Shown here one piece after another: positions 5,202-31,482 of a stretch of DNA of 64,000 nucleotides. The stretch is from an uncultured Anaerolineae bacterium (GTDB lineage: Bacteria > Chloroflexota > Anaerolineae > JACIWP01), in contig CALIBQ010000004.1 in NCBI GenBank assembly GCA_938049385.1, positions 1-64,000 on the forward strand. Direction: 5' to 3'. The notes beneath the pieces are model-generated. The model was given only the letters and a program-made list of their open reading frames with translations. It was not told the DNA's origin and did no database searches. Every line of letters starts with the position of its first letter. Within the stretch, counting starts at the first letter, position 1. The translations under genes were made by a program, and so were the position numbers.

Positions 5202-5228
5202 GGGCAAGGTCCTTCGCGCCGGCCGGCC

Positions 5229-7787
<2,559 letters not shown>

Positions 7788-10894: not shown

Positions 10895-10923
10895 TTGACG
10901 AGTTGTCCTGCTTGGGTGATAAT
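10895..10923 (+). promoter_or_regulatory. Promoter of the first BMP transporter operon (TTGACG-N17-GATAAT)
   Basis: TTGACG (10895-10900) and GATAAT (10918-10923) are 17 bp apart. Transcription would start near 10930, 25 nt before a short upstream reading frame and about 130 nt before the lipoprotein start. Confidence 0.7.
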
Positions 10924-10954
10924 AGGGGCAGTCGTGTCACAGAAAGGAGGTGCA

Positions 10955-11074
10955 ATGGAGCACAATACAGGGAACCAACGACCGCAGACACGATATCCCC
11001 GATTGTCTCTGCTGGTACTCTGCACCTATTTTTCACACCCAACTTGGAGGAGGACAAAATGCGCAAAATCGTGA
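10955..11074 (+). CDS. Possible 39-residue leader peptide overlapping the lipoprotein start
   Basis: ATG at 10955 follows AAAGGAGG by four bases, a better initiation signal than many genes here. The frame reads MEHNTGNQRPQTRYPRLS and ends at TGA 11072-11074, beyond the lipoprotein ATG at 11059 in another frame. Such an overlap could couple translation. There is no run of one amino acid that would suggest classical attenuation, and I recognise no homologue. It may be fortuitous. Confidence 0.35.
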   Translation: MEHNTGNQRPQTRYPRLSLLVLCTYFSHPTWRRTKCAKS

Positions 11075-12135
11075 TGGTCCTTGTGGCACTGGTGGTCATT
11101 GCCAGCATGGTCATGGCATGTGCGCCGAAGGCCACCCCGGCTCCCACCGCCGCCCCCGAAAAGCCGAAGCTCAAAGTCGGTATGGTTACCGACGTCGGTG
11201 GCATTGATGACAAATCCTTCAACGCCACTTCCTGGCACGGCATGGAGCTGGCGCGCGATGAGCTGGGCGTAGAGGTCGCCTACCTCGAATCCCAACAGCA
11301 GACCGACTATGCCGTCAACATCACCCAGTTCATTGACCAAAAGTACGACATGATCATCACCGTCGGTTTTCTGCTGGGCGAGGATACCAAGACCTTCGCC
11401 GAGAAAAACCCCAACGTCAAGTTCGCCATCGTGGACTATTCCTATGACCCGCCCATTCCCAACGTGCTGGGCCTGACCTTCGCCACGGATGAGGACGCCT
11501 TCCTCGCCGGCTACCTGGCCGCCGGCATGACTCAGACCGGCAAGGTCGGCACCTTCGGCGGCATCAAGATCCCGCCCGTGACCATCTTCATGGTCGGCTT
11601 TGAGAACGGTGTCAAGTACTACAACCAGAAGCACGGCACCAATGTCCAGGTGCTGGGCTGGGAATCCGCCAAGGACGAAGGCCTCTTCGTGGGCAACTTT
11701 GAGTCCACCGATGACGGCCGGCGCGCCGGGGAAGACCTCATCGGCGAGGGCGCGGATATCATCATGCCCGTGGCCGGCCCCGTTGGCCTGGGCACTGCCG
11801 CCGCCGTGCGGGAGCACGCCGGCACCATGCTCATCGGCGTCGACACCGATTGGTGCATCAGTGCCGCAGAGTACTGCCCAGTTGTCCTCACCAGCGTCAT
11901 GAAGAACATGGACGTGGCTGTGCGCGATGCTATCAAGATGGCGTTGGATGGCACCTTCAAGGGCGGCACCTACGTTGGCACCCTGAAGAACGGCGGTGTA
12001 GGCATCGCTCCGTTCCATGAGTTCGACGGCAAAGTGCCGGATTCCCTCAAGAAGGAGCTGGATCAGCTCAAGCAGGATATCATCGCCGGCAAGATCAACA
12101 CTGGCTGGCAGGATTACCTGGCTACCCTGAAGTAG
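11059..12135 (+). CDS. BMP-family ABC transporter substrate-binding lipoprotein (first system)
   Basis: 358 residues. The lipobox ends MVMAC with Cys21, followed by a Pro/Ala/Thr linker, so it is a membrane-anchored extracytoplasmic receptor. The mature part has the BMP/PnrA motif VGMVTDVGGIDDKSFN, typical of receptors for purine nucleosides and related compounds (PnrA/TmpC, Med; RfuA of the same family binds riboflavin). Start fixed by TTGGAGGAGG upstream of the ATG at 11059. A 32-bp perfect palindrome separates it from the ATPase gene. The real ligand is not shown. Confidence 0.93.
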   Translation: MRKIVMVLVALVVIASMVMACAPKATPAPTAAPEKPKLKVGMVTDVGGIDDKSFNATSWHGMELARDELGVEVAYLESQQQTDYAVNITQFIDQKYDMIITVGFLLGEDTKTFAEKNPNVKFAIVDYSYDPPIPNVLGLTFATDEDAFLAGYLAAGMTQTGKVGTFGGIKIPPVTIFMVGFENGVKYYNQKHGTNVQVLGWESAKDEGLFVGNFESTDDGRRAGEDLIGEGADIIMPVAGPVGLGTAAAVREHAGTMLIGVDTDWCISAAEYCPVVLTSVMKNMDVAVRDAIKMALDGTFKGGTYVGTLKNGGVGIAPFHEFDGKVPDSLKKELDQLKQDIIAGKINTGWQDYLATLK

Positions 12136-12146
12136 CCGCCGAATGA

Positions 12147-12178
12147 CAAGGCGGTGCCGGCATGCCGGCACCGCCTTG
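12147..12178 (+). terminator. 32-bp perfect palindrome between receptor and ATPase genes
   Basis: A perfect palindrome centred at 12162/12163 (left arm CAAGGCGGTGCCGGCA). It begins 12 nt after the receptor stop. It lacks a long T-run, so it likely stabilises the receptor mRNA or attenuates read-through into the ATPase gene, giving more receptor than transporter. The second BMP system has an equivalent hairpin at the same place. Confidence 0.7.
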
Positions 12179-12245
12179 CTGTTATCAGCCATTCCGCCGG
12201 CGATCTCTTCACTGCCTTTCGAACGCCTGCCTGAGGAGAGAATGC

Positions 12246-13781
12246 ATGGCTCCGGTACTGGAACTGCGTGGCATTACCAAACGCTTTCCCGGCGTTCTGG
12301 CCAACGATCATATCAGCCTGACCGTCGAGGAAGGGGAAATCCATGCCCTGCTTGGCGAGAACGGCGCCGGCAAAACCACCCTGATGAACATCCTTTACGG
12401 TCTCTACCGGCCGGATGAGGGCGAAATCTACGTGCGCGGCCGGCGCGCCGAGATCCGCCAGCCCAACGACGCCATCAACCTCGGCATCGGGATGGTCCAT
12501 CAGCACTTCATGCTGGTGCCCGTCTTCACCGTGGCCGAGAACGTCATGCTGGGGGTAGAATCCATCCGCGCAGGCATCTTCCTCGACCGGGAAGACGCTG
12601 TCCGCCGCATCCGCCAGATTTCCGAACAGTACGGCCTCGGTGTCGACCCCCATGCCTATATCAAAACCCTGCCGGTCGGCATCCAGCAGCGCGTGGAAAT
12701 CATCAAGCTCCTCTACCGCCAGGCGGACATCCTTATCCTGGATGAACCCACCGCCGTGCTCACCCCACAGGAAGTGGAGGAGCTGTTCAAAATACTGCGC
12801 TCCCTGGCATCCCAGGGCAAGTCTATCATCTTCATCACCCATAAGCTGAAAGAGGTCATGGCCATTGCCGACCGCATTACCGTCCTGCGCAACGGTCGGG
12901 TGGTGGGCACCACCACGCCGGCCAAGACCTCGGAGGAACAACTGGCCGCCATGATGGTCGGCCGCGAAGTGCTCCTGCGGGTGGAGAAGCGGCCGGCCCA
13001 GCCCGGCGAACCGGTCCTGCGGGTGGAGAACCTGCAGGTATTCGACGACCGAGGCAATCTGGCAGTGCGCGGCGTGTCCTTCGAGGTGCGCGCCGGCGAG
13101 GTGCTGGGAGTCGCCGGCGTGCAGGGCAACGGCCAGACGGAGCTGGTACAGGCACTGACCGGCCTGCGGCCTGCGGCCGGCGGACGCATTTTCATCCTCG
13201 ATAAAGACATGACCACTGCCTCTCCTCGGGCCATCCTGGAACGCGGTGTCGCCCACGTGCCAGAGGACCGCCAGAAAGACGGATTGGTGCTCTCTTTCCC
13301 CGTCGCGGACAACCTGGTGCTGAACACCTACTACCTGCCGCCTTTTGCCCAGCGCGGGGTGATGGACAGGGAGGTTATCCTCGCCACCGCCGAACGCCGC
13401 GTCCGGGAATTTGACGTGCGCACCCCCAGCGTGCTCACCCCGGTCTCCAGCCTCTCGGGCGGCAATCAACAAAAGGTTATCGTGGCTCGCGAATTCTCCC
13501 GCCCCATCCGCCTGCTTATCGCTTCCCAGCCGACGCGCGGCTTGGACGTGGGCTCCATCGAATATATCCACCGCCGCATCGTCGAAAAGCGCGACGAAGG
13601 ATGTGCGGTACTGCTGGTCTCACCGGAATTAGACGAAGTGATGAACCTTTCCGACCGCATCGCGGTCATGTATGAAGGTCAGATCCAGGCCATCCTGCCG
13701 GCCGAAACCGCTACCAAGGAAGAAATCGGCCTGCTCATGGCGGGAGTGCGAAAGGAGGAGGTCCGTGCCACTGCCGGCTGA
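12246..13781 (+). CDS. ABC transporter ATP-binding protein, sugar/nucleoside type (first system)
   Basis: 511 residues with two nucleotide-binding domains, as in RbsA and NupA-like importers. Domain 1 has Walker [11 protein letters not shown]-loop region, the signature-like [11 protein letters not shown] and Walker [14 protein letters not shown]. Domain 2 has a degenerate P-loop (GVQGNGQTE) but a good [11 protein letters not shown] signature, normal for this family. The ATG at 12246 follows AGGAGAG. Its 3' end overlaps the next gene by 17 bp, implying translational coupling. Confidence 0.95.
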
Positions 13782-15963
13782 CATCCTGCGAATGGGCTTA
13801 ATCACCGACGGCGGACGCATTGACGACGGCGGCTTCAACCAACAAGCATATGAAGGGCTACTGCGGGCCGCCCAGGAGCACGGCATCGAAGTGGTGGTGC
13901 GCCAGCCGGCCTCCCCCACCGCGTACGAGACCGAACTGCGCCAGCTCCTGGATGAGGACTGCCGGCTCATCGTCACGGTCGGTTCGGTCACCGGGCCGGC
14001 CGTCGAGCGCATCGCCGTCCGCTACCCGCAAGCTCATTTCATTGTAGTGGATTATGAGCCGCTGGTCGAAAGCAAGAACATGACCGGTCTGGTCTTCGCC
14101 GAGGACCAGGCCGGCTTCCTCGCCGGCGCCTTGGCCGGCCTCATCACCTCTCGCGGCACAGTAGGTTTTATCGGCGGGAAAGACCTGCCGCCCATCCGCC
14201 GCTTCCACCACGGCTTCGCCAACGGCTTAGCCCTCACCAACCGCCAGGCGAAGCTCATCCCGGTCTATACCAATTCCTTCACCGATGCGGATGCCGGCGT
14301 CCGCGCCGCCCAGAAACTCATCGAGGAAGGTGTGGATATCATTTTTGCGGCCGCTGGCGCCTGCGGCAGTGCCGGCCTGCTGGCCGCCGCCTCGCAGGGC
14401 ATCTGGGTCATCGGCGCGGACCAGGACCAGTGGCTCACCACCTTTCAAAACGGCCGGCAGTCCGGGGCCGACCATGTCCTCACCAGCGCGGTCAAACGCG
14501 TCGATGAGGCGGTCTATCAGGCAGTCCAGAAAGCCCTGCACAGTGGACTGCGCGGCGGCGTTATGCGTTTCGACCTGGCCAATGCCGGCATAGGTTTGGC
14601 TCCTTTCCACGACGCCGATGTCGCAGTGCCCTCCGAGGTGCGCGGCAAAATCCTGGAAATCAGCGAGAGCCTCAAGAGCGGGCGCATCCGCACCGGCGTC
14701 GGGCCGCAGGGCGAGGAAATCCGCCGGGGCATCTTCGCTCGCCTGACCACCTGGAACTGGCAGGCGGCCCTTATCCCCTTCCTGGCCATTGTCTCCGCGC
14801 TCATCATCGGCGCAATTTTCATCATGGCCTTTGACCCGAAGGTCTGGGCGGCGTTCGGCAACGGATTCTCCGCCGGCATGCAGGCCGCCTGGCGCACCAT
14901 CTCCCGCGCCTATATCTCCCTGTTTGAGGGGGCATTCGGCAATCCCGGCCGCATCATTGAGGGCTTCCGCGTCCTCTTCCAGACGGGCGAGGCCGACGAA
15001 TTGCTGGCCGGCATCCGACCCTTGACGGAAAGTCTGCGGATTGCCACGCCGTATATCTTCGCCGGCCTGGCGGTAGCCTTGGGATTCCGCTGTGGCCTGT
15101 TCAACATCGGCGCCGAAGGCCAGTATTTCATCGGCGGCCTGGCGTCGGTCTTTGTCGGCTACAGCATCAAGGGCCTGCCCTGGTTCATTCATCTCCCGCT
15201 GGCGCTGGCCGCCGGCATGGCCGGCGGGGCGCTGTGGGCCTCTATCGCCGGCTTCCTCAAGGCCCGCACCGGCGCCCACGAAGTCATCAACACCATCATG
15301 CTCAACTACATCTCCTTCCGCCTGGCCGACTATCTGCTCCAGGTCGGCGGCCCGATGTCGCGCCGGGGCGACTTCCGGCCCATCAGCCCGGAGATTCAGC
15401 CCTCGGCCTATTTGCCGCAGTTCTTCCCACATGACCCGTCTATCCGCTTGAACACCGGCCTGCTTCTGGCACTGCTGGCGGTCTTCCTGGTGTATTTCCT
15501 GCTCTTCAAGACCACCATTGGCTTCGAAATTCGCGCTGTGGGAGCCAACCCGCGCGCCGCCCGCACCGCCGGCATCAGCGTTGCCCGCAACATCATGCTC
15601 GCCATGGCGCTCAGCGGCGGGCTGGCCGGCCTGGCCGGCGCCCATGATATCCTGGGCGTACTGCACTTTATGCCCAACGCCTTCTTCTCCGGCTACGGGT
15701 TCGACGCCATCGCCTTGGCGCTCCTAGGTAAGAGCCATCCGGTAGGCGTCCTGCTGGCCGCTCTGCTGTTCGGCTTCCTGAGAGCCGGCGCCCAGCGCAT
15801 GCAGGCTCCGCCGGCCCTCGTTCCCATTGACATTATCTCCATCGTGCAGGCGCTCATCATCATCTTCATCGCCGCACCCGAGATTATCCGTCTCGTGTAC
15901 CGCATCCGCGCCCCGAAGGAAGCCGGCGAGGCGGTCTTCACGCGCGGCTGGGGCCGTATATAA
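13765..15963 (+). CDS. Fusion of a BMP-type substrate-binding domain to an ABC permease
   Basis: 732 residues in one uninterrupted frame. Residues about 8-320 are a complete BMP-like binding domain (MGLITDGGRIDDGGFNQQ, paralogous to the lipoprotein at 11059). From about 335 on it is a BPD_transp_2-type permease with FNIGAEGQYFIGG and GANPRAARTAGI motifs and many membrane helices. I chose the GTG at 13765 because AAAGGAGGAGG lies directly upstream; the gene overlaps the ATPase gene by 17 bp. There is no signal peptide or lipobox before the binding domain, so it might be cytoplasmic, unless the N-terminus is exported with the first helix. Family permeases are normally about 350 residues and lack this domain. 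Confidence 0.9.
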   Translation: MPLPADILRMGLITDGGRIDDGGFNQQAYEGLLRAAQEHGIEVVVRQPASPTAYETELRQLLDEDCRLIVTVGSVTGPAVERIAVRYPQAHFIVVDYEPLVESKNMTGLVFAEDQAGFLAGALAGLITSRGTVGFIGGKDLPPIRRFHHGFANGLALTNRQAKLIPVYTNSFTDADAGVRAAQKLIEEGVDIIFAAAGACGSAGLLAAASQGIWVIGADQDQWLTTFQNGRQSGADHVLTSAVKRVDEAVYQAVQKALHSGLRGGVMRFDLANAGIGLAPFHDADVAVPSEVRGKILEISESLKSGRIRTGVGPQGEEIRRGIFARLTTWNWQAALIPFLAIVSALIIGAIFIMAFDPKVWAAFGNGFSAGMQAAWRTISRAYISLFEGAFGNPGRIIEGFRVLFQTGEADELLAGIRPLTESLRIATPYIFAGLAVALGFRCGLFNIGAEGQYFIGGLASVFVGYSIKGLPWFIHLPLALAAGMAGGALWASIAGFLKARTGAHEVINTIMLNYISFRLADYLLQVGGPMSRRGDFRPISPEIQPSAYLPQFFPHDPSIRLNTGLLLALLAVFLVYFLLFKTTIGFEIRAVGANPRAARTAGISVARNIMLAMALSGGLAGLAGAHDILGVLHFMPNAFFSGYGFDAIALALLGKSHPVGVLLAALLFGFLRAGAQRMQAPPALVPIDIISIVQALIIIFIAAPEIIRLVYRIRAPKEAGEAVFTRGWGRI

Positions 15964-15990
15964 AGGGACGGGTGCTAAAGGAGGAGCAAC

Positions 15991-17289
15991 GTGAGCACAC
16001 CCTGGCAAGCCGTTGGCGCCCGAGGAAGCGTGTCCATCCGCAGGGCCAGAACATATGGCTTCGTGTTTCTCGCCGCCGGCCTGTTCATCTTCCTGCTCTT
16101 CGCCCGGGGACTGCCGGCCGTCCAGACCACCACCTTTGTCCTGCACCCCGGCGGAGCATCGCAGGCCCTCCCCATCCCTGACCTAACCCTACCCAGCCAG
16201 ACCACCTTGTACATTTTGGCGCTCCTCTGCGTGTTCCTGGGCGGTTGGCAGTTGGCACGCGGCTTCCGGCGGGTGAACCTGGTGCTGGGCATCATCGCCG
16301 GCGCGTTCGTCATCGCCTTCCTCACCTGGGCGGCGAGCGGGAAATCCTTCAACCTCACGGGCTTGCTGAACAGCGCGCTCCTGCGCGCCGTGCCTATCGC
16401 GTTGGCCGGCCTATCGGGCGTGCTGTGCGAGCGCTGTGCCGTCATCAACATCGCCATCGAGGGCATGATGCTGACCGGCGCCTTCACCGCCGCGCTGATG
16501 GGCAGTGTGGCGGCCAACGTATGGAAGTGGCCGGCTCCTGCCTCCCTGACCTTCGGGCTGATCTCCGCGCTGATGGCCGGCGCACTGCTTGGCCTGCTCC
16601 TGGCGGTCTTGGCCGTGCGCTTCAAAGTGGACCAGATCATCGCCGGCACCGCCATCAACATCCTGGCCACCGGCATCACCAGCTTTCTCAGCGCCCGCAT
16701 CCTTTCCGAGTTTCAGTACCTCAACAACCCGGGCATCTTCCGGCCGGTTTCCCTGCCCCTGCTCTCCAAAATCCCCATCATCGGACCGGTCTTTTTCGAG
16801 CAGAACATCCTCGTTTATGTCTTGTTCATACTGCTGGCCGCCGTGCACATCATGCTCTTCTACACCCGCTGGGGACTGCGCACGCGTGCCGTTGGCGAGC
16901 ACCCGCGCGCCGCGGACACCCTGGGCGTGAACGTCTTCCGCACACGCTATATCAATGTAACGTTGGGGGGTATGGTCGCCGGCCTGGCCGGCGCCTTCCT
17001 CATCCTAGGCTCCGTGGGCCGCTTCGATGAGCTGATGACCGCCGGCAAAGGATTCATCGGCCTCGCCGCCATGATCTTCGGCAAATGGACCCCCTTCGGG
17101 GCCTTCGGTGCCGCCCTCATCTTCGGCTTTGCGGACGCCCTGCAGACCAAGCTGGCCATCCTGGCGGTGCCTATCCCCTCCCAGTTCCTGCTGATGGCGC
17201 CCTACCTGGTGACCATGATTGTGCTGGCCGGCGTCATCGGCGAGGCCATCCCGCCGGCGGCCGATGGTCAACCCTACGAGAAACAGTAG
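15991..17289 (+). CDS. ABC transporter permease, nucleoside/BMP type (first system)
   Basis: 432 residues, second permease of the first system. Conserved INIAIEGMMLTGAF and VGEHPRAADTLGV motifs mark the BPD_transp_2 family (NupQ/YufQ-like). An N-terminal extension of about 110 residues carries extra hydrophobic helices (FVFLAAGLFIFLLFA and YILALLCVFLGGW), making it longer than the second-system counterpart at 26257. GTG start with AAAGGAGGAG upstream. Its stop is 1 bp from the stop of the converging rlmI-like gene, and no terminator separates them. Confidence 0.93.
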   Translation: MSTPWQAVGARGSVSIRRARTYGFVFLAAGLFIFLLFARGLPAVQTTTFVLHPGGASQALPIPDLTLPSQTTLYILALLCVFLGGWQLARGFRRVNLVLGIIAGAFVIAFLTWAASGKSFNLTGLLNSALLRAVPIALAGLSGVLCERCAVINIAIEGMMLTGAFTAALMGSVAANVWKWPAPASLTFGLISALMAGALLGLLLAVLAVRFKVDQIIAGTAINILATGITSFLSARILSEFQYLNNPGIFRPVSLPLLSKIPIIGPVFFEQNILVYVLFILLAAVHIMLFYTRWGLRTRAVGEHPRAADTLGVNVFRTRYINVTLGGMVAGLAGAFLILGSVGRFDELMTAGKGFIGLAAMIFGKWTPFGAFGAALIFGFADALQTKLAILAVPIPSQFLLMAPYLVTMIVLAGVIGEAIPPAADGQPYEKQ

Positions 17290-20324: not shown

Positions 20325-21698
20325 ATGCCCGCACACTGGTTATCCGAAATCATGCGCCGTTCCCATGACGGGCCGTTCATGCGCGAACACGACTTCGACA
20401 TGGCCGTGGCCAAAACCGCCCGTCAGCTCACGAAGAAATACGGCATCCGCTTCAACCCGCAAACCCCTGTCCCCTGGGATGACGACCTGACTGACCGAGT
20501 CTATCAGGCCGGCCTCGAACTGTTCCTGGAAGTGGGCGTCTACAACATGGACACCTCTCGCGTCATCCGCTTCTCGCGCGATGAGGTCGAGGAAATCCTG
20601 CGCCATGAGCCTGGCCAGGTCGTCCTTGGCGAGGGGAAGGATGCCGTCGTCATGAAGGCCCGCAAGGTCGAGGACACAGAGCGCCCCATCGTGCACTCCG
20701 GCCCCACCGGGACGCCCTGCTCCGAGACGATGCATCCCCGCATTCTCATCAGTTGTGCGCAGGAGCCGCTGATCGACTGCCTCGGCGCCGGCTCCGTCGC
20801 CATGTACCACGGCCAGGAGATCAAGCCTGGCACCCCGTTAGAAATCATGGGCTCGCGGCGTGACGCCATCGCGGCGCGCATGGCCGTGACCGCCGCCGGC
20901 CGGCCAGGTATGCACATCAACGACGTCGCCGTCTCCTTGACCTGCGCCGGCAAAATGGCCGCCTGCAACCCGCAGTTCGGCTTGCGTCCCAGCGACGGCC
21001 TCCTGGTCTCCCAGATGACCGAGCTGAAGACCAACTTCGACCAGCTCTCGCGCGTCGCCTTCCTCCTGGACTACGGCATCCGCATCGTGGACTTGATGAC
21101 CCCGCTTATCGGGGGCATCGGCGGAGGGGCCGAGGGCACGGCTATCGTATCCATCGCCACCCACCTGCTGGGCGCCACCTGCTACTGCGCCGATTACCAC
21201 ATGATGAGCCACACCCACCTGAAATGGCTCAACAACACCGACCGCATGGGCCTCTGGATTATGGCCGAGGTCGGTCAGGCGCTGTCCCGCAACACCCGCA
21301 TTGTTACCCTGAACGACATCTACACCGTTTCCGGCCCCGGCACGGAAGAACTGCTCTACGAGGCCGCCGCCGGCGCTATCACTGGCACCGTCAGCGGCAT
21401 GAACATCCAGGGGTGCGGCTGTACCGGCGGCTCCCTCACCGACCACTATACCGGGCTGGAAGCCCGCTTCGCCGCCGAGGTCTCGCGCGCCGTCGTCGGC
21501 ATGTCCCGCCAGCAGGCCAACGAACTGGTCCTCAAAATCCTGCCCCTTTATGAGCACACCTTTGAGGCGCCGAGGCGCGGGCTCCCATTCCAGGAAGTGT
21601 ATGACCCGCTCACCGTCCAGCCGAAGCCGACCTGGATCGAGCCGTACCAGCGCGCCAAGGAAAAACTGGCCAGCTTGGGCATCCATTTCGTCACCTGA
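20325..21698 (+). CDS. MtmB-like corrinoid methyltransferase lacking pyrrolysine
   Basis: 457 residues, co-linear with monomethylamine methyltransferase MtmB (458 residues). Shared landmarks are QKYG/KKYGI near the N-terminus, GPTGTP, GRPGM, and the C-terminal TGLEARFAAEVSRA...PLYE stretch. In MtmB the in-frame amber codon for pyrrolysine (residue 202) follows GRPGMGV; here the equivalent site in GRPGMHINDV is Asn199, encoded by AAC at 20919-20921. The alignment is from memory of the MtmB family. Substrate specificity is therefore likely not monomethylamine, as with non-pyrrolysine MttB homologues that use glycine betaine and similar compounds. It should transfer a methyl group to the corrinoid protein encoded next. 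AAAGGAGG lies 13 bases before the ATG, a long spacing. Confidence 0.85.
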   Translation: MPAHWLSEIMRRSHDGPFMREHDFDMAVAKTARQLTKKYGIRFNPQTPVPWDDDLTDRVYQAGLELFLEVGVYNMDTSRVIRFSRDEVEEILRHEPGQVVLGEGKDAVVMKARKVEDTERPIVHSGPTGTPCSETMHPRILISCAQEPLIDCLGAGSVAMYHGQEIKPGTPLEIMGSRRDAIAARMAVTAAGRPGMHINDVAVSLTCAGKMAACNPQFGLRPSDGLLVSQMTELKTNFDQLSRVAFLLDYGIRIVDLMTPLIGGIGGGAEGTAIVSIATHLLGATCYCADYHMMSHTHLKWLNNTDRMGLWIMAEVGQALSRNTRIVTLNDIYTVSGPGTEELLYEAAAGAITGTVSGMNIQGCGCTGGSLTDHYTGLEARFAAEVSRAVVGMSRQQANELVLKILPLYEHTFEAPRRGLPFQEVYDPLTVQPKPTWIEPYQRAKEKLASLGIHFVT

Positions 21699-21753
21699 TG
21701 CCTGCCGGCCAGTAATCCCCCTATACCCGAGGAAAGGAGAATCACCTACCGCC

Positions 21754-22404
21754 ATGCTGGAGAAATATCGCGAACCGCTGAGCAATGCCATCGCCGAGGG
21801 CGAGGCTGAACAGGCTGTCGAGCTGACCCGACAAGCTCTCTCCGAAGGCGTTGACCCCTTGGACATCATTCAGGGCATCCTGGTGCCGGCCTTGACCCAG
21901 GTCGGCGAACGCTTCCAGGCATTCGAGATTTTCCTGCCGGAGCTGATGATGGCCGGCGACGCGGCGGCCGCCGCCACCACCATCTTGGAAGAAGCCATCG
22001 CCGCTAAAGGTGCCCAGCGTCAGCATTTGGGCACCATCGTGCTCGGGACCGTTGCCGGCGACATCCACGATATCGGCAAGAACATCGTCTCCACCCTGCT
22101 TCGCTCCCATGGGTTCAACGTGGTGGACCTGGGACGCGATGTGCCGGCCATTCGGTTCATTGAGGAAGCGGAAAAACATCACGCCGCCATCATCGCCATG
22201 TCGGCGCTGATGACCACCACGCGGCCGGCCCAGCGCGACACCATCAACCTCCTCAAAGAGCTGGGCAAGCGCGATGCTTTTAAGGTAATTGTAGGCGGCG
22301 GATGCGTTAATGCCGAATGGGCGCAGGCCATCGGCGCTGATGGCTATGCCGAGAACGCCGCCGAGGCAGTTGTGCTGTGCAAACGACTGCTTCAGGCGAA
22401 CTGA
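21754..22404 (+). CDS. Corrinoid (B12-binding) methyl carrier protein
   Basis: 216 residues of the MtmC/MttC/MtbC family. Residues 1-90 are the helical cap domain (EGVDPLDIIQGILVPALTQVG), and residues 91-216 the Rossmann B12-binding domain with the DxHxxG motif at Asp103-His105-Gly108; His105 would be the lower cobalt ligand. It accepts a methyl group from the adjacent MtmB-like enzyme and passes it to a second methyltransferase. Neither that acceptor enzyme nor a RamA-type reactivase is in the window. The ATG at 21754 follows AAAGGAG by about 14 bases. Confidence 0.95.
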   Translation: MLEKYREPLSNAIAEGEAEQAVELTRQALSEGVDPLDIIQGILVPALTQVGERFQAFEIFLPELMMAGDAAAAATTILEEAIAAKGAQRQHLGTIVLGTVAGDIHDIGKNIVSTLLRSHGFNVVDLGRDVPAIRFIEEAEKHHAAIIAMSALMTTTRPAQRDTINLLKELGKRDAFKVIVGGGCVNAEWAQAIGADGYAENAAEAVVLCKRLLQAN

Positions 22405-22488
22405 GCGGGGCTGTTCGCCGGCTTCTCCGCCGTTCGAGGTGTCAGCCTTCTGGTTCCCATATCATTTTCCAGAGAGGAGGTTTTTCGT

Positions 22489-23544
22489 ATGCTAGGAAGA
22501 AGGGCCCGATCCATCCTTGCCGTGCTAGTTGTGCTGGTGCTGGTAGCCGTGAGCCTCGGCGCCTGCGCGCCCGCCACCCCTGCGCCCACCCCCGTACCCC
22601 CCACCAGCACGCCGGCCCCTACCGCCGCACCTTCTGGCGCGGCACCGGTTCGCCTGGCCATCTTGATGACTGGCGAAATCACCGACCTGTCGTGGAACGC
22701 CCAGATGTACCGCGCCGCCATGGAAATCAAGGAAAAACTGGGCATTGACGTGGCCTACTCCGAGCAGATCGCGCCGGCAGACGGCGAGCGCGTCATGCGC
22801 GAGTATGCGGATGAGGGCTACAACCTCATCATCGCCCATTCCTTCTCCTACGGCGATGCGGTCTTCCGCGTGGCGCAGGATTATCCCAATGTCAATTTCG
22901 CCTGGGCCGGCGGCATGAACAAGACCGCCCAGAACGTGGCGGACTACGACCAGCCCTTCTACCAGGCCTCGTACCTGATCGGCATCCTCGCCGGCGGCGT
23001 CTCCAAGGGCACTATGAACTTCCTGGGCGGGTTCGATATCCCCGTCTGCCATTCCATGGCCGAGGCGTTCAAGGCCGGCGCCCGCAGTGTGAACCCTAAC
23101 TCCACCTTGCTCGCTTCCTATGTCGGCGACTGGGGCGATGTTGCCAAAGCCAAAGAGGCCGCCCTGGCGCAAATTGATGCCGGCGCGGACTTCGGCATCG
23201 GTTGCGGCGAAGGTCCGACCCTCGGCATGATTGAGGCCGCCAAAGAGCGCGGCGTTTATGCCACCGGTTATGTCGGCGACATGTCCGAGATCGCGCCGGA
23301 CACTGTCTTGACCAGCTTGGTGTGGAACCTGTATCCACTGCTGGAGACCATGGTCAAGGACGTCCAGGCCGGCGCGTTCCAGCCCGGCAAGTTCTACTCC
23401 CTGGGCGTGGCGCAGGGCGCCTTTGAGATGCCCATCAACCCCAAGCTCAAGGACAAGGTGCCGGCCAGCGTCCTGGAACAGGTCGAAAAGGCCAAGGCGG
23501 ACATCATCGCCGGCAAACTCGAGGTTCCGTACATCCCACAGTAA
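22489..23544 (+). CDS. BMP-family ABC transporter substrate-binding lipoprotein (second system)
   Basis: 351 residues with a lipobox ending VSLGAC (Cys26) and a long Thr/Pro/Ala linker. The mature domain is BMP-like but its first ligand loop reads LMTGEITDLSWNAQM, differing from the DKSFN type of the first system, so the ligand may differ. It is 84 bp downstream of the corrinoid gene on the same strand, which ties import to the methyltransferase pair. AGAGGAGG precedes the ATG. Confidence 0.93.
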   Translation: MLGRRARSILAVLVVLVLVAVSLGACAPATPAPTPVPPTSTPAPTAAPSGAAPVRLAILMTGEITDLSWNAQMYRAAMEIKEKLGIDVAYSEQIAPADGERVMREYADEGYNLIIAHSFSYGDAVFRVAQDYPNVNFAWAGGMNKTAQNVADYDQPFYQASYLIGILAGGVSKGTMNFLGGFDIPVCHSMAEAFKAGARSVNPNSTLLASYVGDWGDVAKAKEAALAQIDAGADFGIGCGEGPTLGMIEAAKERGVYATGYVGDMSEIAPDTVLTSLVWNLYPLLETMVKDVQAGAFQPGKFYSLGVAQGAFEMPINPKLKDKVPASVLEQVEKAKADIIAGKLEVPYIPQ

Positions 23545-23559
23545 CGGCATGTAGCTGTT

Positions 23560-23590
23560 GGGGGAGCCAGGAAGTGTTCCTGGCTCCCCC
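23560..23590 (+). terminator. 14-bp stem hairpin between receptor and ATPase genes
   Basis: GGGGGAGCCAGGAA pairs perfectly with TTCCTGGCTCCCCC around a GTG loop, 15 nt after the receptor stop. Like the palindrome at 12147-12178 it lacks a strong T-tract and probably sets receptor-to-transporter ratio. Confidence 0.7.
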
Positions 23591-23607
23591 CGCCTATTCC
23601 CCATAGA

Positions 23608-25199
<1,592 letters not shown>

Positions 25200-25203
<4 letters not shown>

Positions 25204-26270
25204 CCCAAAGAGCCGCGCTCTCCACGACGGGACAGCGTCCTTCTACCGCGATGTCCCTGCTCCTGAAGGGGTCCCCCATCCTGGCGGTGATCCTCGCCCT
25301 TCTGCTGGGGGCTTTGATCATCGCGGCCGTCGGCGTCAGCCCGCTGGCCGCCTATCAAGCCATGGTCAAAGGAGCCTTTGGAAGCCCGCGCGCGCTTACG
25401 CAGGCCTCCCTGCGCGCCGTGCCCCTCCTGCTCATCAGCCTGGGGCTGGTTCTGGCCTTCCGCAGTCGCATCTGGAACATCGGGGCAGAGGGGCAGTTGT
25501 ACATGGGGGCCTGGGCCGCCGCACTGTTCGCGCTGAGCTTCCCGGACCTGCCGCCGGCCCTCATGTTGATGGGTCTCCTGCTGGTAGGCTTCGCCGGCGG
25601 CGCGCTGTGGGGGCTGGTGCCGGCGCTCCTGCGGGCCTACCTGGGTGCCAATGAAATCGTCACCAGCCTCCTGCTGAATTACGTGGCCATCTTCTGGGTG
25701 AGCTATCAGGTGCGCCTGCCGATGAAAGACCCCACATCCTTCCTGCCGCAGAGCGCCGTCCTGCCGGCGTCGGCCTCCCTGCCGGTACTGCCGGGCACGC
25801 GCCTGCACATGGGGGTCATCTTGGGGCTTATCCTGGTGCCGGCCATCGCCTTCATCCTCTGGAAGACCCCGCTGGGCTACCGCCTGCGGGTCGTCGGCTC
25901 CAACCCGAACGCGGCCCGCTTCGCCGGCATCAATGTCCCCTTGCATATCATCATCGTTATGGTCATCAGCGGCGGGTTGGCCGGCATCGCCGGCATGATC
26001 GAGGTCGCCGGCGTGCACCACCGCCTGATCCAGGATATCTCGCCAGGGTTTGGCTTCACCGCCATCGTCGTGGCCCTGCTGGGACAGCTTCATCCCGCCG
26101 GCGCCCTCCTGGCGGCGTACTTCTTCGCATCCCTGGTCATCGGGGCCGATTCCATGCAGCGCATCGTGGGCCTGCCCGTGGCCCTGACCGAGGTCATCCA
26201 GGCGTTGGTCGTGCTCTTCGTGCTGGCCAGCGAGGCGTTCAGGAGGCGTGTCCGCCGTGTCGTGGGATAG
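25200..26270 (+). CDS. ABC transporter permease 1, nucleoside/BMP type (second system)
   Basis: 356 residues with about eight to ten hydrophobic helices and family motifs WNIGAEGQLYMGAW, LGANEIVTSLLLNY and VGSNPNAARFAGI. It is the stand-alone equivalent of the permease half of the fusion at 13765, and here no binding domain is attached. ATGA overlap with the ATPase gene and a 14-bp overlap with the next permease indicate tight coupling. Confidence 0.94.
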
Positions 26271-27201
26271 CCTGCTCCAGACCGCGTTCATCATCTCCTT
26301 GATCACCTCCGGCATCCGGCTGGCAGTGCCTGTCCTGCTGGCGGTGCTTGGCGAGATCATCACGGAGCGCGCCGGTGTGCAGAACCTAGGGCTCGAGGGC
26401 ATCATGGCCCTCGGCGCCTTCGCCGGCTTCGCCGCCGCTTTCACCACCGGCAGCGGCATCATCGGACTGCTGGCCGGCGTGCTGGCCGGCATGCTCCTGG
26501 GCCTGCTGATGGGCTACTTCGCCGTCACCCTCAAGGTGAACCAGGTCATCGCCGGCATCTCCCTGGTGCTCCTCGGCCAGGGCTCCGCCAATTTCTTCTA
26601 CCGCCAGATCTTCGGTGTCTCTCAGCGCCCACCGCGCATTGCCGGCCTGCCCGAGGTCCCCATCCCCTTCCTGGCGGACATACCGTATCTCGGCGGCATC
26701 CTTTTCCGACATAATATCGCCGTCTATTTCACTGTCCTGCTGGTAGTCATCGTCTGGGTACTGCTGTTCGGGACCACCTGGGGGCTGAAGGTGCGGGCGG
26801 TCGGGGAACACCCTTCGGCGGCGGACACCTCCGGCGTGGATGTCGCCGGCATCCGCTACGCCTGCACCATCCTCGGCGCGGCCTTCGCCGGCCTGGGCGG
26901 GGCGGTGCTCAGCGTGGCGCAGATGAAGCTTTTCACCGAGAACATGGTCGCCGGCCGCGGCTGGATCGCCATTGCGCTGGTCATTTTCTCCCGCTGGCAC
27001 CCCGGCCTGGCGCTGGCCGGCGCTGTCCTGTTCGGGCTGGCGGATGCCCTGCAGTTCCGCTTCCAGGCCCTGGGCTTCGAGGCGGTCCCCTACGAGTTCC
27101 TGCTCATGCTCCCCTATATCCTGACCATCGTCGTCCTGCTGGCCGGCGGCCGGCGGGGCGCCGCGCCGGCGGCCCTCGGCATCCCGTACGAGAAGGAGTA
27201 A
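26257..27201 (+). CDS. ABC transporter permease 2, nucleoside/BMP type (second system)
   Basis: 314 residues with NLGLEGIMALGAF and VGEHPSAADTSGV motifs, the usual partner of the preceding permease. The GTG at 26257 is preferred over the GTG at 26248 because AGGAGG (26241-26246) would be only one base from the latter and ten from the former. It is the last gene of the operon. Confidence 0.93.
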   Translation: MSWDSLLQTAFIISLITSGIRLAVPVLLAVLGEIITERAGVQNLGLEGIMALGAFAGFAAAFTTGSGIIGLLAGVLAGMLLGLLMGYFAVTLKVNQVIAGISLVLLGQGSANFFYRQIFGVSQRPPRIAGLPEVPIPFLADIPYLGGILFRHNIAVYFTVLLVVIVWVLLFGTTWGLKVRAVGEHPSAADTSGVDVAGIRYACTILGAAFAGLGGAVLSVAQMKLFTENMVAGRGWIAIALVIFSRWHPGLALAGAVLFGLADALQFRFQALGFEAVPYEFLLMLPYILTIVVLLAGGRRGAAPAALGIPYEKE

Positions 27202-27404: not shown

Positions 27405-27923
27405 CTACATGCACACCGCTTCCGTCCGCTCCAACGGCTTCCAGCGAGATTCCCGCAGGCGCTTGGAGAAGATCAGCAGGTCATCCCCATCCTGATAAAA
27501 ATCATGCACCACCGCCTCGACCTGATAGCCGCAGTGGGCGTACAGCGCACAGGCGGATGCATACAGCGGGGAACTCGAGGTCTCGATCAGGACCTTACGG
27601 CCCCCTCGTGCGGCGATCTCCTCCTCCGCCTCTTGCAAGAGCGCCCGTCCAATGCCCCGATGCTGTGCCTCCGGGGCTACCGCGATCCAGTAGATATCGT
27701 ATATCCCTTCCGTCAGGGAATGGGGGCCGAAACAAACATAGCCCCACACCGCACCGCCCTCGCGATACACGCGAAAAGAATAGCCGCTCCGCTCCTCACC
27801 TGCGCTCAGGTACTGGGACCACAGCTCCTGGGCGCACCGTACCTCGCCGGCGGTAAAGACGCCGGCCTGCTGGGTGATGCGGAGTATACTTGACCCGTCT
27901 GCTTCTGTCGCTGACTCGATCAT
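27405..27923 (-). CDS. GNAT-family N-acetyltransferase
   Basis: 172 residues with the acetyl-CoA motif VAPEAQHRGIGRALLQEAE and the C-terminal LYAHCGYQVEAVV segment of GNAT enzymes. The ATG at 27923 has AGGGAAGG eight bases upstream. It is the last gene of the aminomutase/ATP-grasp operon and its first 128 bp overlap the end of the preceding open frame. Given a lysine 2,3-aminomutase in the operon, it could be the beta-lysine acetyltransferase (AblB role), which is inference. Confidence 0.85.
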   Translation of the reverse strand: MIESATEADGSSILRITQQAGVFTAGEVRCAQELWSQYLSAGEERSGYSFRVYREGGAVWGYVCFGPHSLTEGIYDIYWIAVAPEAQHRGIGRALLQEAEEEIAARGGRKVLIETSSSPLYASACALYAHCGYQVEAVVHDFYQDGDDLLIFSKRLRESRWKPLERTEAVCM

Positions 27924-28953
27924 ACGTGTGCCTTCCCTGCCAGGCGATCTCCAGGATGTGCTCCACCATATCGGCATAGGACAAGCCGGCCTGCGCCGCC
28001 GCCCGGAAAAAGCCGGCGTCCGGCGCGATGTCCGGGTTGCAGTTCACCTCAATCACATAGGGCATGCCCTCTTCCGACACCCGCATATCCACCCGGGCAT
28101 ACCCCTCACAGCCAATGATCTCCCACACCGCCACCGCGACAGAGGAGATGGCACTGCGCAGGGTGTCATCGTGCAGGGTGTTGTACACCGCCGGCGTATG
28201 CTGATACTCGAACGACCCCTCCTCCCACTTGGCCGCGTACGAGACGATGCGCTGATACGGGTCTGGGAAAGCGCTGAAGTCAATCTCGGCCAGCGGGAGC
28301 AGTTCGGGCGGTTCGCCCCACAGGGCCGCGTTGAATTCCCGGCCGGCGATGAACTCCTCCACCAGCGATGCCTGGCGGTACGTCTGCCGCATGTATGCCA
28401 CCCGCCGGCGCACCTCGGCCAAGGAATGGGCCACCGCCGGATACTCCACCCCAACGCTCCCATCTTCCGCCATCGGCTTGACGATGACCGGATACCCCAA
28501 GCCCAGGTCCGCCTCGTCGCGCAGTTCGTCCTCATGCTGGACGATGCGCCAGGGAGGGGTCGGGATGCCGTGCTGGGCCAGGAGCGATTTGGTGCGGCCC
28601 TTGTGCGTGGTCAGGGCCAGGGCATCGCCGCGGGCGCCGGTGAAGCAGTAGCCCATAGCTTCCAGTGCCCAGGCAACGCGCGCTTCCTCAAAGAGCCGGC
28701 CTTCCCCGCCGTCCACCAGGTTGAAGACCACCCACTCCGTCGGAGGGTACTGGCGCGCCAGGTCCTCCACCTCGCCGGCCAGGGACACGAGGGCAGCCCG
28801 ATAGCCTTTCGACTGCAGGGCCTCTGCCACCGCATGGGCGCATGAGGCCATGCTCCGTTCCGCGAGCAGGTCGCGCGGTTCGCCCTTCACCAAGCGGCGG
28901 CTGTCGTGGAACAGCACCACCACGCCAGCCAATTCCTGCGGCAGTACAGCCAT
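27796..28953 (-). CDS. D-Ala-D-Ala-ligase-like ATP-grasp enzyme (second of pair)
   Basis: 385 residues. The ATP-grasp core shows PVIVKPMAEDGSVGV, SLVEEFIAGREFNAALWG, and the metal-binding end ARVDMRVSEEGMPYVIEVNCNPDI. It belongs with D-alanine-D-alanine ligases but has its own N-terminal domain, so the two substrates are unknown. The last 40 or so residues (from about GRHTYDRV) are Arg-rich and do not look like a ligase end; a one-base frame change would instead stop at a TGA overlapping the GNAT ATG. This may be a frameshift or simply an over-long tail. GGAGGGGGAG precedes the ATG. Confidence 0.85.
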   Translation of the reverse strand: MAVLPQELAGVVVLFHDSRRLVKGEPRDLLAERSMASCAHAVAEALQSKGYRAALVSLAGEVEDLARQYPPTEWVVFNLVDGGEGRLFEEARVAWALEAMGYCFTGARGDALALTTHKGRTKSLLAQHGIPTPPWRIVQHEDELRDEADLGLGYPVIVKPMAEDGSVGVEYPAVAHSLAEVRRRVAYMRQTYRQASLVEEFIAGREFNAALWGEPPELLPLAEIDFSAFPDPYQRIVSYAAKWEEGSFEYQHTPAVYNTLHDDTLRSAISSVAVAVWEIIGCEGYARVDMRVSEEGMPYVIEVNCNPDIAPDAGFFRAAAQAGLSYADMVEHILEIAWQGRHTYDRVSDRSRRVKYTPHHPAGRRLYRRRGTVRPGAVVPVPERR

Positions 28954-28983
28954 CTCCCCCTCCTATTCCTTTGTCAGGAGCAC

Positions 28984-30096
28984 TCAACCAGGCTTGCCCT
29001 GGGCGACGGAGGCCTCGCTGGGCGGCCGGCCGGCGGACGGATGTCCCACCGCCGAGGCCATGCCGTAGCGCTCCAGCGCCAGGTTCAGAATCTCGTTGAT
29101 GAGCGTGGTGTACTCCACTCCGCCGGCGCGCGCCGCGATCACGATATCGCTGTAGATCGGGTTCAGGCCCGGCAGGGTGTTGATCTCCATCAGCATGGGC
29201 CGGCCGGCGGCATCCAGCCGGAAATCCACCCGCGCCACGTCCAGCCCGCCCAGCACCTCAAAGGCCTGGACGGCCAACTTCTGCAGTTCAGCCGCCAGCG
29301 CGGGGTCTATCGGTGCTGGGCAAAGGTAATTCAGGTCCAGCGCCTTATCGGTCTTCAGGTAACTGCTGTAAGGGGTGCCGGCCTCTGATACCGGGCTGAC
29401 GTCAATCTCCAGCACCGGGAAGACATGGAAGCCTTCGGCGTCGTAGAAGCCGGGGCGCCGGCGCTCGCCGCCGCGCAGTCGGTTGCCCACCAGCCCGACG
29501 GTGAACTCGCGGCCCGGCAGATAGGCCTCCACCAGCGCCGGCTGGCGGTAGCGCGCGATCAGCCAGCGCACCCGCTCGTAGAGCGCCGGCATGTCCCGCA
29601 CCACCGATCCCTCGTCAATGCCCATGCCGGAGCCTTCCTGCACCGGCTTGACGAACAGGGGGAACTCCAGTTCCGGCGACAGCGGCTCGTCCCCACGCGA
29701 AAAGACCTGGAAGGGAGCGGTGGGCAGGCCGGCGTCCCGCCAGACCCGCTTTGCCGCCGCCTTATTTAGGGAAAGCGCATGCGCCAGCACCTTGGAGCCG
29801 GTGTAGGGGATGGCCAGCATTTCCAGGATGGCCGGCACGTGCGATTCGCGCGCATCCCCCCGCAGGCCTTCGGCGATATTGAAGCAGATATCGGGCCGCG
29901 CCGCGCGCAGGGCATCCCACAGGGTCTCATCCGCTTCCAGCAGGGTAACCCGATGCCCGCCGGCCTCCAGCGCCTCCTTGATACCGTTGACCGTGACCTC
30001 GGTATCATACTCCGCCAGGGCATCCGGCGGCGCATCAGGTCCCACCTGCACATGATGTTTCAAATTGAAGATCAACCCGACATGCAGTTGCGGCAT
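28984..30096 (-). CDS. D-Ala-D-Ala-ligase-like ATP-grasp enzyme (first of pair)
   Basis: 370 residues, paralogous to the enzyme at 27796. Motifs include CFNIAEGLRGDARESHVPAI (substrate/serine loop region), FPLFVKPVQEGSGMGI, LVEAYLPGREFTVGL and ARVDFRLDAAGRPMLMEINT. These bind ATP-Mg and an acyl phosphate. A second ligase 30 bp downstream and an aminomutase 27 bp upstream suggest a dedicated peptide-bond-forming pathway rather than cell-wall D-Ala-D-Ala synthesis, for which one ligase is enough. Confidence 0.88.
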   Translation of the reverse strand: MPQLHVGLIFNLKHHVQVGPDAPPDALAEYDTEVTVNGIKEALEAGGHRVTLLEADETLWDALRAARPDICFNIAEGLRGDARESHVPAILEMLAIPYTGSKVLAHALSLNKAAAKRVWRDAGLPTAPFQVFSRGDEPLSPELEFPLFVKPVQEGSGMGIDEGSVVRDMPALYERVRWLIARYRQPALVEAYLPGREFTVGLVGNRLRGGERRRPGFYDAEGFHVFPVLEIDVSPVSEAGTPYSSYLKTDKALDLNYLCPAPIDPALAAELQKLAVQAFEVLGGLDVARVDFRLDAAGRPMLMEINTLPGLNPIYSDIVIAARAGGVEYTTLINEILNLALERYGMASAVGHPSAGRPPSEASVAQGKPG

Positions 30097-30123
30097 ATGA
30101 TAGCGTTATCCCTGTTCCTACAC

Positions 30124-31482
30124 TTAGCGTGCAGGAATCTCCATAGAATGAACCGGCTCCGCGACATAAGCCTCGCGTTGATGGGCCTCCTGCCAGCCGG
30201 CCGGCTCGATGCTCCGGGCCTCGCCGGCCAGCAAGCCGCGCACGCCGGCCTGTGTCCCTTCCCCCCGGCGAGCCTTGCAGTAGGGACAGGTATGCGGATC
30301 ATGGGAGACGTAATGGCTCGGCTGTTCGTAAGAACAGATAAAGCCCTCGTAATTGCGCACTACCACCCGCCGCTCCGACATGCTCAACAGATAGTTGGGC
30401 AGGATAGGTACTTTGCCACCGCCGCCCGGCGCGTCGATCACAAAGGTCGGGATGGCATAGCCAGAGGTATGACCCCGCAGGGACTCCATAATCTCGATGC
30501 CCTTCTGCACCGGTGTGCGGAAGTGGTCCGTCCCCCGCACCATGTCGCACTGATAGAGGTAGTAGGGCCGCACCCGGTTCCGCACCAGTCGGTGCACCAA
30601 GGCGGTGATAACGTTCGGACAGTCGTTGATGCCGGCCAGCAGGACGGTCTGGCTTCCCAGGGGGATGCCGGCGTCCGCCAGCTTCGCCAGCGCCCGCTCC
30701 ACTTCTGGCGACACCTCTTTCGGATGATTGAAGTGGATGTTCATCCACAGCGGGTGATAGGCGCGCAGCATCTGCACCAGGTCATCGGTAACGCGCTGGG
30801 GCAGGAACACCGGCACCCGTGTCCCAATGCGGATGATTTCCACATGGGGTATGGCCCGCAGACGTGAAAGCAGATACTGCAGGACCTTGGGGGCCAGCAG
30901 AAGCGGGTCACCGCCGGAAAGCAGGACATCACGCACCTGCGGATGTGCGGCGATGTATGCCAACTGCTGTTCATAGACCCGGAAGCCCATCTGGGCATGG
31001 GCATCGCCCACCAGCCGGCTACGGGTGCAGAACCGGCAGTAGCTGGCGCACTGCGCCGTTACCAGCATCAGCACGCGGTCCGGGTAGCGGTGCACCAGGC
31101 CCGGCACGGGGGAATGCGCGTCCTCAGCCAGGGAATCCTCATACTCCCATTCCGCCGGCGTCAGCTCCGCCGTCGTCGGGATCACCTGCCGGCGAATGGG
31201 ACAGTTGGGATCGTCCGGGTCCATCAGGCTGGCGAAGTAGGGGGTTACCGCGACGCGAAAATGCCCGGGTGCCGCCAGAGCTTCTCTCTCTTCATCGGTC
31301 AGGCGAACGACCCGAGCAAAATCCTCAGTGGTGCGCAGGCGGTGGCTTAACTGCCAGCGCCAATCGTTCCACAGCTCAGGAGCGATGTGACTCCATGCGC
31401 CAGGAGGCTCCTCAGCACTACCGGGAGGCTCTTCGACGCTACCAGGAGGCTCTTCCAGTTCGCGAGTGTCAATCAATTCCAT
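30124..31482 (-). CDS. kamA: L-lysine 2,3-aminomutase (KamA), radical SAM
   Basis: 452 residues. The radical-SAM cysteines are Cys145, Cys149 and Cys152 (CASYCRFC). The PLP lysine is Lys357 in DAPGGGGKVPI. Asp313 (YQCDM) and Asp350 match in spacing the two aspartates (293 and 330, by memory of the Clostridium enzyme) that hold the lysine side-chain amine, so L-lysine to L-beta-lysine is the likely reaction. A C-terminal CPYC fits the zinc site. The N-terminus carries three copies of an EEPPGS-type heptad (residues 10-29). The only in-frame start, ATG 31482, lies 16 bases from AAAGGAGG, which is unusually far. Confidence 0.94.
   Translation of the reverse strand: MELIDTRELEEPPGSVEEPPGSAEEPPGAWSHIAPELWNDWRWQLSHRLRTTEDFARVVRLTDEEREALAAPGHFRVAVTPYFASLMDPDDPNCPIRRQVIPTTAELTPAEWEYEDSLAEDAHSPVPGLVHRYPDRVLMLVTAQCASYCRFCTRSRLVGDAHAQMGFRVYEQQLAYIAAHPQVRDVLLSGGDPLLLAPKVLQYLLSRLRAIPHVEIIRIGTRVPVFLPQRVTDDLVQMLRAYHPLWMNIHFNHPKEVSPEVERALAKLADAGIPLGSQTVLLAGINDCPNVITALVHRLVRNRVRPYYLYQCDMVRGTDHFRTPVQKGIEIMESLRGHTSGYAIPTFVIDAPGGGGKVPILPNYLLSMSERRVVVRNYEGFICSYEQPSHYVSHDPHTCPYCKARRGEGTQAGVRGLLAGEARSIEPAGWQEAHQREAYVAEPVHSMEIPAR

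Follow-up and report, generated by a model that had tools for sequence, protein, structure and literature searches.

The window analyzed here, a stretch of 64,000 nucleotides from an uncultured Anaerolineae bacterium of the phylum Chloroflexota, harbors a gene for a protein of the MtmB family that carries asparagine in the place of the pyrrolysine of the monomethylamine methyltransferase. This raises the question of which compound such an enzyme could demethylate. The absence of pyrrolysine in an MtmB homologue is not new in itself, and the view of the original prediction that such proteins are little described is outdated, as two reports describe them (PMC13044021, 2026; PMC9768040, 2022). 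The first presents a tree of 1,061 MtmB proteins in which most non-pyrrolysine members are left without an assigned function, and identifies MtqB of Methanococcoides methylutens, which demethylates tetramethylammonium and choline, as the first non-pyrrolysine MtmB with a demonstrated function. In the second, a non-pyrrolysine MtmB was the most strongly induced protein of the dichloromethane-grown strain DCMF. What is new is the conserved transporter context of the asparagine-type mtmB, which was overlooked earlier and points to a probable substrate class.

An MtmB homologue with asparagine at the pyrrolysine position

The gene belongs to a unit at 20325–27201 with the following features:

20325–21698, plus strand: asparagine-type mtmB homologue without pyrrolysine, 457 amino acids (PF05369, 368 bits against a cut-off of 25; MtmB1 in the PDB, E 2e-78; AlphaFold2 model)
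20919–20921, plus strand: AAC codon of Asn199, in the column of Pyl202 of MtmB1 (alignments and direct reading of the codon)
21754–22404, plus strand: cognate methyltransferase corrinoid protein, 216 amino acids (TIGR02370, 222 bits against a cut-off of 215; PF02310 and PF02607)
22489–23544, plus strand: lipoprotein binding protein of the BMP/PnrA family (PF02608, 179 bits; PDB sequence search, fold search and pocket residues)
23608–25203, plus strand: ABC ATPase of the BMP transporter, with two ATPase halves (homologous and in the same position in loci L021, L022 and L023)
25200–26270, plus strand: permease 1 of the BMP transporter (PF02653; conserved order)
26248–27201, plus strand: permease 2 of the BMP transporter (PF02653; conserved order)

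Direct reading of the codons showed that the mtmB homologue ends with a TGA stop and contains no in-frame TAG; the ribosome-binding site AAGGAGG is present on its 5' side. The match to the PF05369 (MtmB) profile covered positions 5–449 of 450. The only sequence relatives in the PDB were entries of MtmB1 of Methanosarcina barkeri (E about 2e-78), residues 19–458 of which paired with residues 16–455 of the window protein in the phmmer alignment, in agreement with the predicted co-linearity of the two (457 versus 458 residues). The identity to MtmB1 was about 34%, and that to many other non-pyrrolysine homologues 31–39%. As the window protein is no closer to MtmB1 than to these, it represents a distinct subfamily rather than an MtmB that has merely lost its amber codon. 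An AlphaFold2 model built from the window protein and 22 homologues (mean pLDDT 92.7) superposed on the structures of MtmB1 (1nth, 1l2q) with a TM score of 0.96 and an rmsd of 1.4 over 452 columns, and thus supports the TIM-barrel fold of MtmB.

In the alignment with 1l2q, residue X (pyrrolysine 202) paired with Asn199 of the window protein (GRPGMGVX against GRPGMHIN), and in the predicted structure this residue lies on the barrel strand 197–200. The placement of asparagine at the pyrrolysine position and the assignment to PF05369 were therefore both upheld. The motif GRPGMHIND, including the asparagine, was invariant throughout the close clade of seven proteins, made up of the window protein and six orthologues of 62–98% identity, from three families. 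In the 43 rows of the Chloroflexota alignment, MtmB1 included, the pyrrolysine column was occupied by N, G, L, I, V, Y, M, T, A or a gap, and a residue other than pyrrolysine is the rule among the MtmB homologues of this phylum. The PF05369 phylogeny, drawn within the phylum, placed the window protein in the seven-member asparagine clade; MtmB1 formed a long branch, the position of which was too uncertain to tell how often pyrrolysine was gained or lost.

The residues Glu229, Glu259 and Gln333, which are assigned to pyrrolysine chemistry in MtmB, align with Leu, Leu and Asp in the window protein. A search of the window's genome for pylS returned a single match of 19.4 bits, far below the cut-off of 178, which one control genome exceeded. 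The window protein thus lacks the amber codon and the Glu229/Glu259/Gln333 set, and its genome lacks PylS. The original prediction that the chemistry must differ from that of MtmB holds, because without the pyrroline imine the known activation of monomethylamine is impossible, and the counterparts of the three assisting residues are replaced as well. A pyrrolysine-free monomethylamine methyltransferase, suggested by the sequence and fold of MtmB, is accordingly very improbable; the unit contains no amine transporter, and MtqB itself is reported to be only slightly active with monomethylamine (PMC13044021). Monomethylamine was rejected as the substrate on the basis of the active-site losses, the absent pylS and the gene context.

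A corrinoid protein and a BMP-type transporter in one unit

Downstream of the asparagine-type mtmB, and in the same direction, follow the genes for the corrinoid protein, the BMP binding protein, the ABC ATPase and two permeases. The corrinoid gene begins after 55 bases, and its product contains DIHDIG at residue 103, which corresponds to the DxHxxG B12 motif. The mtmB, corrinoid and lipoprotein genes each have a clear ribosome-binding site. The ATPase has its equivalent elsewhere in the window in the gene at 12162–13781, which matches PF00005. The unit has the makeup of a two-component corrinoid methyltransferase, with an adjacent cognate corrinoid protein bearing the B12 motif, and with an activator and a methyl acceptor in the genome: two RACo_C_ter proteins (contigs C27 and C38), Pterin_bind proteins on contigs C1, C28, C38 and C52, and a CODH/ACS-like cluster on contig C27, read by eye. 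No match to a purine or cobalamin riboswitch was found between 9000 and 28000 of the window at E up to 1, none above the gathering threshold was found in eight related loci, and a search of plasmids returned no homologues.

Beyond the unit, the minus strand at 27405–31482 encodes a GNAT acetyltransferase together with a pair of ATP-grasp ligases and a radical enzyme resembling lysine-2,3-aminomutase (all but the GNAT protein read by eye), perhaps a pathway for a small peptide or a beta-amino acid.

Conservation of the unit

The comparison covered genomes of the window's own phylum, and the names of neighboring genes beyond Pfam and NCBIfam calls were read by eye. The order mtmB(N), corrinoid gene, BMP gene, ATPase gene and two permease genes was found in the window's genome and in G002, and within the genus these genes recur in L023. 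The same genes are present in G016 (L022) and G188 (L058) of family f15. In G032 (L021) of family f31, they surround an inserted pair of a corrinoid gene and a glycine-type mtmB, and in G202 (L059, L119) of the same family, the unit genes and such a pair are distributed over two contigs. The unit usually has a further mtmB, of the glycine type; in G016, G032 and G202 it is accompanied by an additional corrinoid protein. The L021 unit also carries a pterin-binding methyltransferase, and the L022 unit an AcsV/RACo-type activator.

Orthologues of the binding protein (E ≤ 1e-70) were found in 11 of the 298 genomes of the class. Nine of these 11 also have an MtmB homologue, and among the remaining 287 genomes 16 do (Fisher p 2e-9, a value that counts related genomes separately and therefore overstates the significance). 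In six genomes the gene immediately before the orthologue is mtmB or its corrinoid partner; in G001 and G294 both genes lie at contig ends and are probably linked. All resolvable orthologues adjoin mtmB except in three genomes (G169, G199 and G277), where the neighbor is a Rieske oxygenase. The pair is confined to few families, and the binding protein stands three times beside other genes, as would be expected if the adjacency of mtmB and transporter were accidental. Such a coincidence is hardly credible, since the order is conserved across three families and recurs in another class with a different mtmB subtype, and since the two genes occur together far above background.

The binding protein and its pocket

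In the sequence search of solved structures, the binding protein came closest to AtzT, a Clostridium Lbp and Brucella 3s99. The fold search ranked AtzT and Lbp with guanosine first, followed by the nucleoside-binding BmpD and PnrA, and wherever this search gave a solved BMP relative for which the ligand is named, that ligand is a purine, a nucleoside or riboflavin. In AtzT, guanine is held between Tyr45 and Trp194 with an affinity of about 110 nM and is also contacted by Ser97, Phe98, Glu165, Asn218 and Asn220 (PMC6834077). The window protein has the PF02608 fold and the two aromatic residues of the ring sandwich in common with AtzT, 3s99, PnrA and Lbp; the Tyr45/Trp194 pair is Trp/Trp in the mtmB-linked proteins, and Ser97–Phe98 is retained. 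Relative to AtzT, Glu165 is replaced by Val, Asn169 mostly by Met, Asn218 by Cys and Asn220 by Glu, and the guanine contact set Glu165/Asn218/Asn220 thus reads Val, Cys, Glu. This altered pattern is nearly invariant among the orthologues, mtmB-linked and Rieske-linked alike. The alignment suggests a dedicated pocket that is still made for a flat ring.

An aromatic pair with a glutamate could suit quaternary ammonium equally well, and quaternary amines are therefore a real alternative: the enzyme could be an MtqB-like demethylase of choline, tetramethylammonium or another betaine, with a BMP transporter shifted to such compounds. In its favor are the two Trp and the acidic Glu of the pocket and the activity of MtqB toward choline and tetramethylammonium, the sole demonstrated function reported for a non-pyrrolysine MtmB (PMC13044021). 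The ligands of the BMP fold relatives, with AtzT and the guanosine-binding Lbp at the top, argue against it, as do the Rieske oxygenases and purine-linked genes considered below, and we regard it as unlikely.

The window contains a second BMP-type ABC transporter (10903–17289), the sandwich of which is Phe/Phe as in nucleoside binders, unlike that of the mtmB-linked protein:

10903–12135: substrate-binding protein of the second BMP-type transporter
12162–13781: ATPase of the second BMP-type transporter
13672–15963: ORF of 763 amino acids, a BMP binding domain joined to a permease domain
15991–17289: permease of the second BMP-type transporter

A Rieske oxygenase in the place of mtmB

In G169, G199 and G277, the orthologue of the binding protein (54–57% identity) adjoins an oxygenase with Rieske and VanA_C domains; in L116 this orthologue is encoded at 4712–5959. 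The conserved SxtT/NdmA-type genes are located as follows:

L115, 1523–2545: Rieske oxygenase gene
L116, 6032–7000: Rieske oxygenase gene
L117, 12502–13470: Rieske oxygenase gene

Their products have 322–340 residues and were 75–81% identical in two comparisons. The best solved relatives were SxtDIOX and SxtT (E 2e-82 to 2e-80), followed by NdmA (3e-45, 2e-41) and NdmB (about 2e-37); the rest were near 1e-21 or weaker. Carnitine monooxygenase and another demethylase chain (4qup) scored far lower, with E about 1e-8 to 1e-7, which does not favor a quaternary amine. As an NdmA/SxtT-type enzyme stands beside the same transporter component, an oxygen-dependent enzyme occupies the place that the corrinoid enzyme occupies elsewhere, and this looks like the replacement of the demethylating enzyme acting on one ligand.

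NdmA and NdmB are oxygen-dependent and release formaldehyde. These methylxanthine N-demethylases probably share the reaction and the substrate class of the window unit, which would differ in needing no oxygen and in keeping the methyl group on a corrinoid.

Purine-linked genes near related mtmB genes

In G314 (L091), which belongs to another class, an orthologue of the binding protein (417 bits), the ATPase and permeases lie between two glycine-type mtmB genes, which are sister to those of G032, G016 and G294 with support of 100/100. Downstream lie two enzymes of the xanthine-dehydrogenase type, the first represented by its FAD, Fe-S and Mo subunits, and between the two an ECF-like transporter (by eye) and an amidohydrolase. 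The mtmB of G277 is preceded by a GntR regulator and a corrinoid protein and followed by an adenine deaminase, which exceeds the curated TIGR01178 cut-off, and by several xanthine-dehydrogenase-type subunits. Its clade is the sister of the asparagine clade, with support of only 94/89, and the G277 protein has the same Leu/Asp/Leu active-site set. Such neighbors are not those expected of a quaternary-amine demethylase.

Several points weaken the purine reading. The neighbors of the unit in the window's own genome include no gene of purine catabolism. The xanthine-dehydrogenase-like proteins may use other substrates, as they fall under the curated cut-offs; this applies to all five MoCoBD_1 proteins of the window's genome. 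Moreover, the nearest Rieske relatives, SxtT and SxtDIOX, are hydroxylases and not demethylases.

Two further leads were set aside. The IMP dehydrogenase of L021 is an ordinary housekeeping enzyme (above the TIGR01302 cut-off) and was given little weight as evidence for purines, and trigonelline, considered as a substrate because nadA/nadC-like genes, read by eye, precede mtmB in G202 (L059), was dropped as this arrangement was not repeated elsewhere.

Other MtmB homologues

The second MtmB paralogue of the window's genome (contig C1; L019, 434–15517) has Tyr at the pyrrolysine site. Its unit encodes a corrinoid protein, an MttB homologue, a pterin methyltransferase, an FGGY kinase, a DeoC-type aldolase, an FAD oxidase, a CCG protein, an amidohydrolase, an alcohol dehydrogenase and a MalK-type ABC transporter, and is largely kept in G001 and G003. 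In G040 (L025, 1223–6221), a class V aminotransferase and a HAD hydrolase (PhnW/PhnX-like) precede two tandem MtmB homologues; this resemblance to 2-aminoethylphosphonate degradation suggests an N-methylated aminoethylphosphonate as substrate. Homologues with a gap at the pyrrolysine site accompany a corrinoid protein, an ornithine-cyclodeaminase-type protein and an MttB homologue in L028 (4154–8809) and L096 (9229–13890).

Further homologues, in G314, are found near creatininase-family genes, in L090 (357–11885) together with genes for hydantoinase A and an arylmalonate-decarboxylase-type protein, and in L092 (2345–19089) together with a dihydroorotate-dehydrogenase-type gene and amidohydrolases. 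N-demethylation of creatinine-like compounds is possible for these homologues. For the window unit, it is improbable that the substrate is a different planar compound, an N-methyl guanidine or lactam of the kind of creatinine or a methylhydantoin. The creatininase and hydantoinase genes beside these homologues speak for it, and so does the fact that SxtT-type Rieske enzymes act on guanidinium tricycles. The L090 and L092 homologues nevertheless belong to other clades and have no BMP transporter, and neither a creatininase nor a hydantoinase gene was seen in the units of the asparagine clade.

A proposed route for the methyl group

Taken with slightly better than even confidence, the unit imports a methylated purine-like heterocycle and carries out its oxygen-independent, corrinoid-dependent N-demethylation, feeding the Wood-Ljungdahl pathway. 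We infer from the transporter and its gene context that the methyl group comes from the imported compound and that this compound is a methylated purine or a close analogue. The BMP-type ABC transporter would bring in an N-methylated, planar, purine-like heterocycle, which the asparagine-type MtmB would hold in its TIM-barrel cavity. As read from the alignment, Asn199 in the place of Pyl202 and Asp331 in the place of Gln333 may hold the ring, and Co(I) of the neighboring corrinoid protein would displace the methyl group directly. We propose that pyrrolysine is dispensable here because a ring nitrogen, charged or protonated, would be a good enough leaving group. The methyl group would then pass to tetrahydrofolate through a pterin-binding methyltransferase, or to CODH/ACS of the Wood-Ljungdahl pathway, yielding acetyl-CoA; a RACo/AcsV-type protein would re-reduce the cobalt, and the demethylated base would enter purine catabolism or salvage.

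MtmB1 resembles the window protein in its full-length PF05369 match, its barrel and its cognate corrinoid protein; the window protein differs in Asn for Pyl202, E229L, E259L and Q333D, in its 34% identity, in the absence of pylS and in the purine-type transporter next to it. MtqB/MtqC of M. methylutens Q3c likewise combine a non-pyrrolysine MtmB with its own corrinoid protein but, compared by their description, are archaeal and feed coenzyme M, and the consulted parts of the report mention no purine-type transporter (PMC13044021); a conserved Met and Cys are named there for the MtqB clade, without positions that can be aligned. The non-pyrrolysine MttB proteins, such as the glycine betaine enzyme MtgB, share the logic of pyrrolysine loss with substrates that have a ready leaving-group nitrogen, the methyl group going to a corrinoid; they form a separate family (MttB, COG5598) acting on aliphatic betaines. 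The leaving-group argument would, by analogy, parallel those for betaines (MtgB) and choline (MtqB).

More specifically, and held somewhat short of even confidence, the asparagine-type and glycine-type MtmB proteins with their PnrA-like transporter may be the anaerobic counterpart of the Rieske enzymes NdmA and NdmB, with methylxanthines or methylated nucleobases as the source of methyl groups for the Wood-Ljungdahl pathway. Full-text searches of the literature, in part limited to titles and abstracts, returned no report of corrinoid-linked demethylation of purines or caffeine.

The conserved transporter and the apparent exchange of mtmB for a Rieske oxygenase yield a concrete and cheaply testable substrate prediction for one bacterial branch of the MtmB family. 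If it is true, corrinoid methyl transfer reaches N-methyl heterocycles, beyond simple and quaternary amines, and methylated purines from nucleic-acid turnover or plant alkaloids would be a methyl source for anaerobic Chloroflexota.
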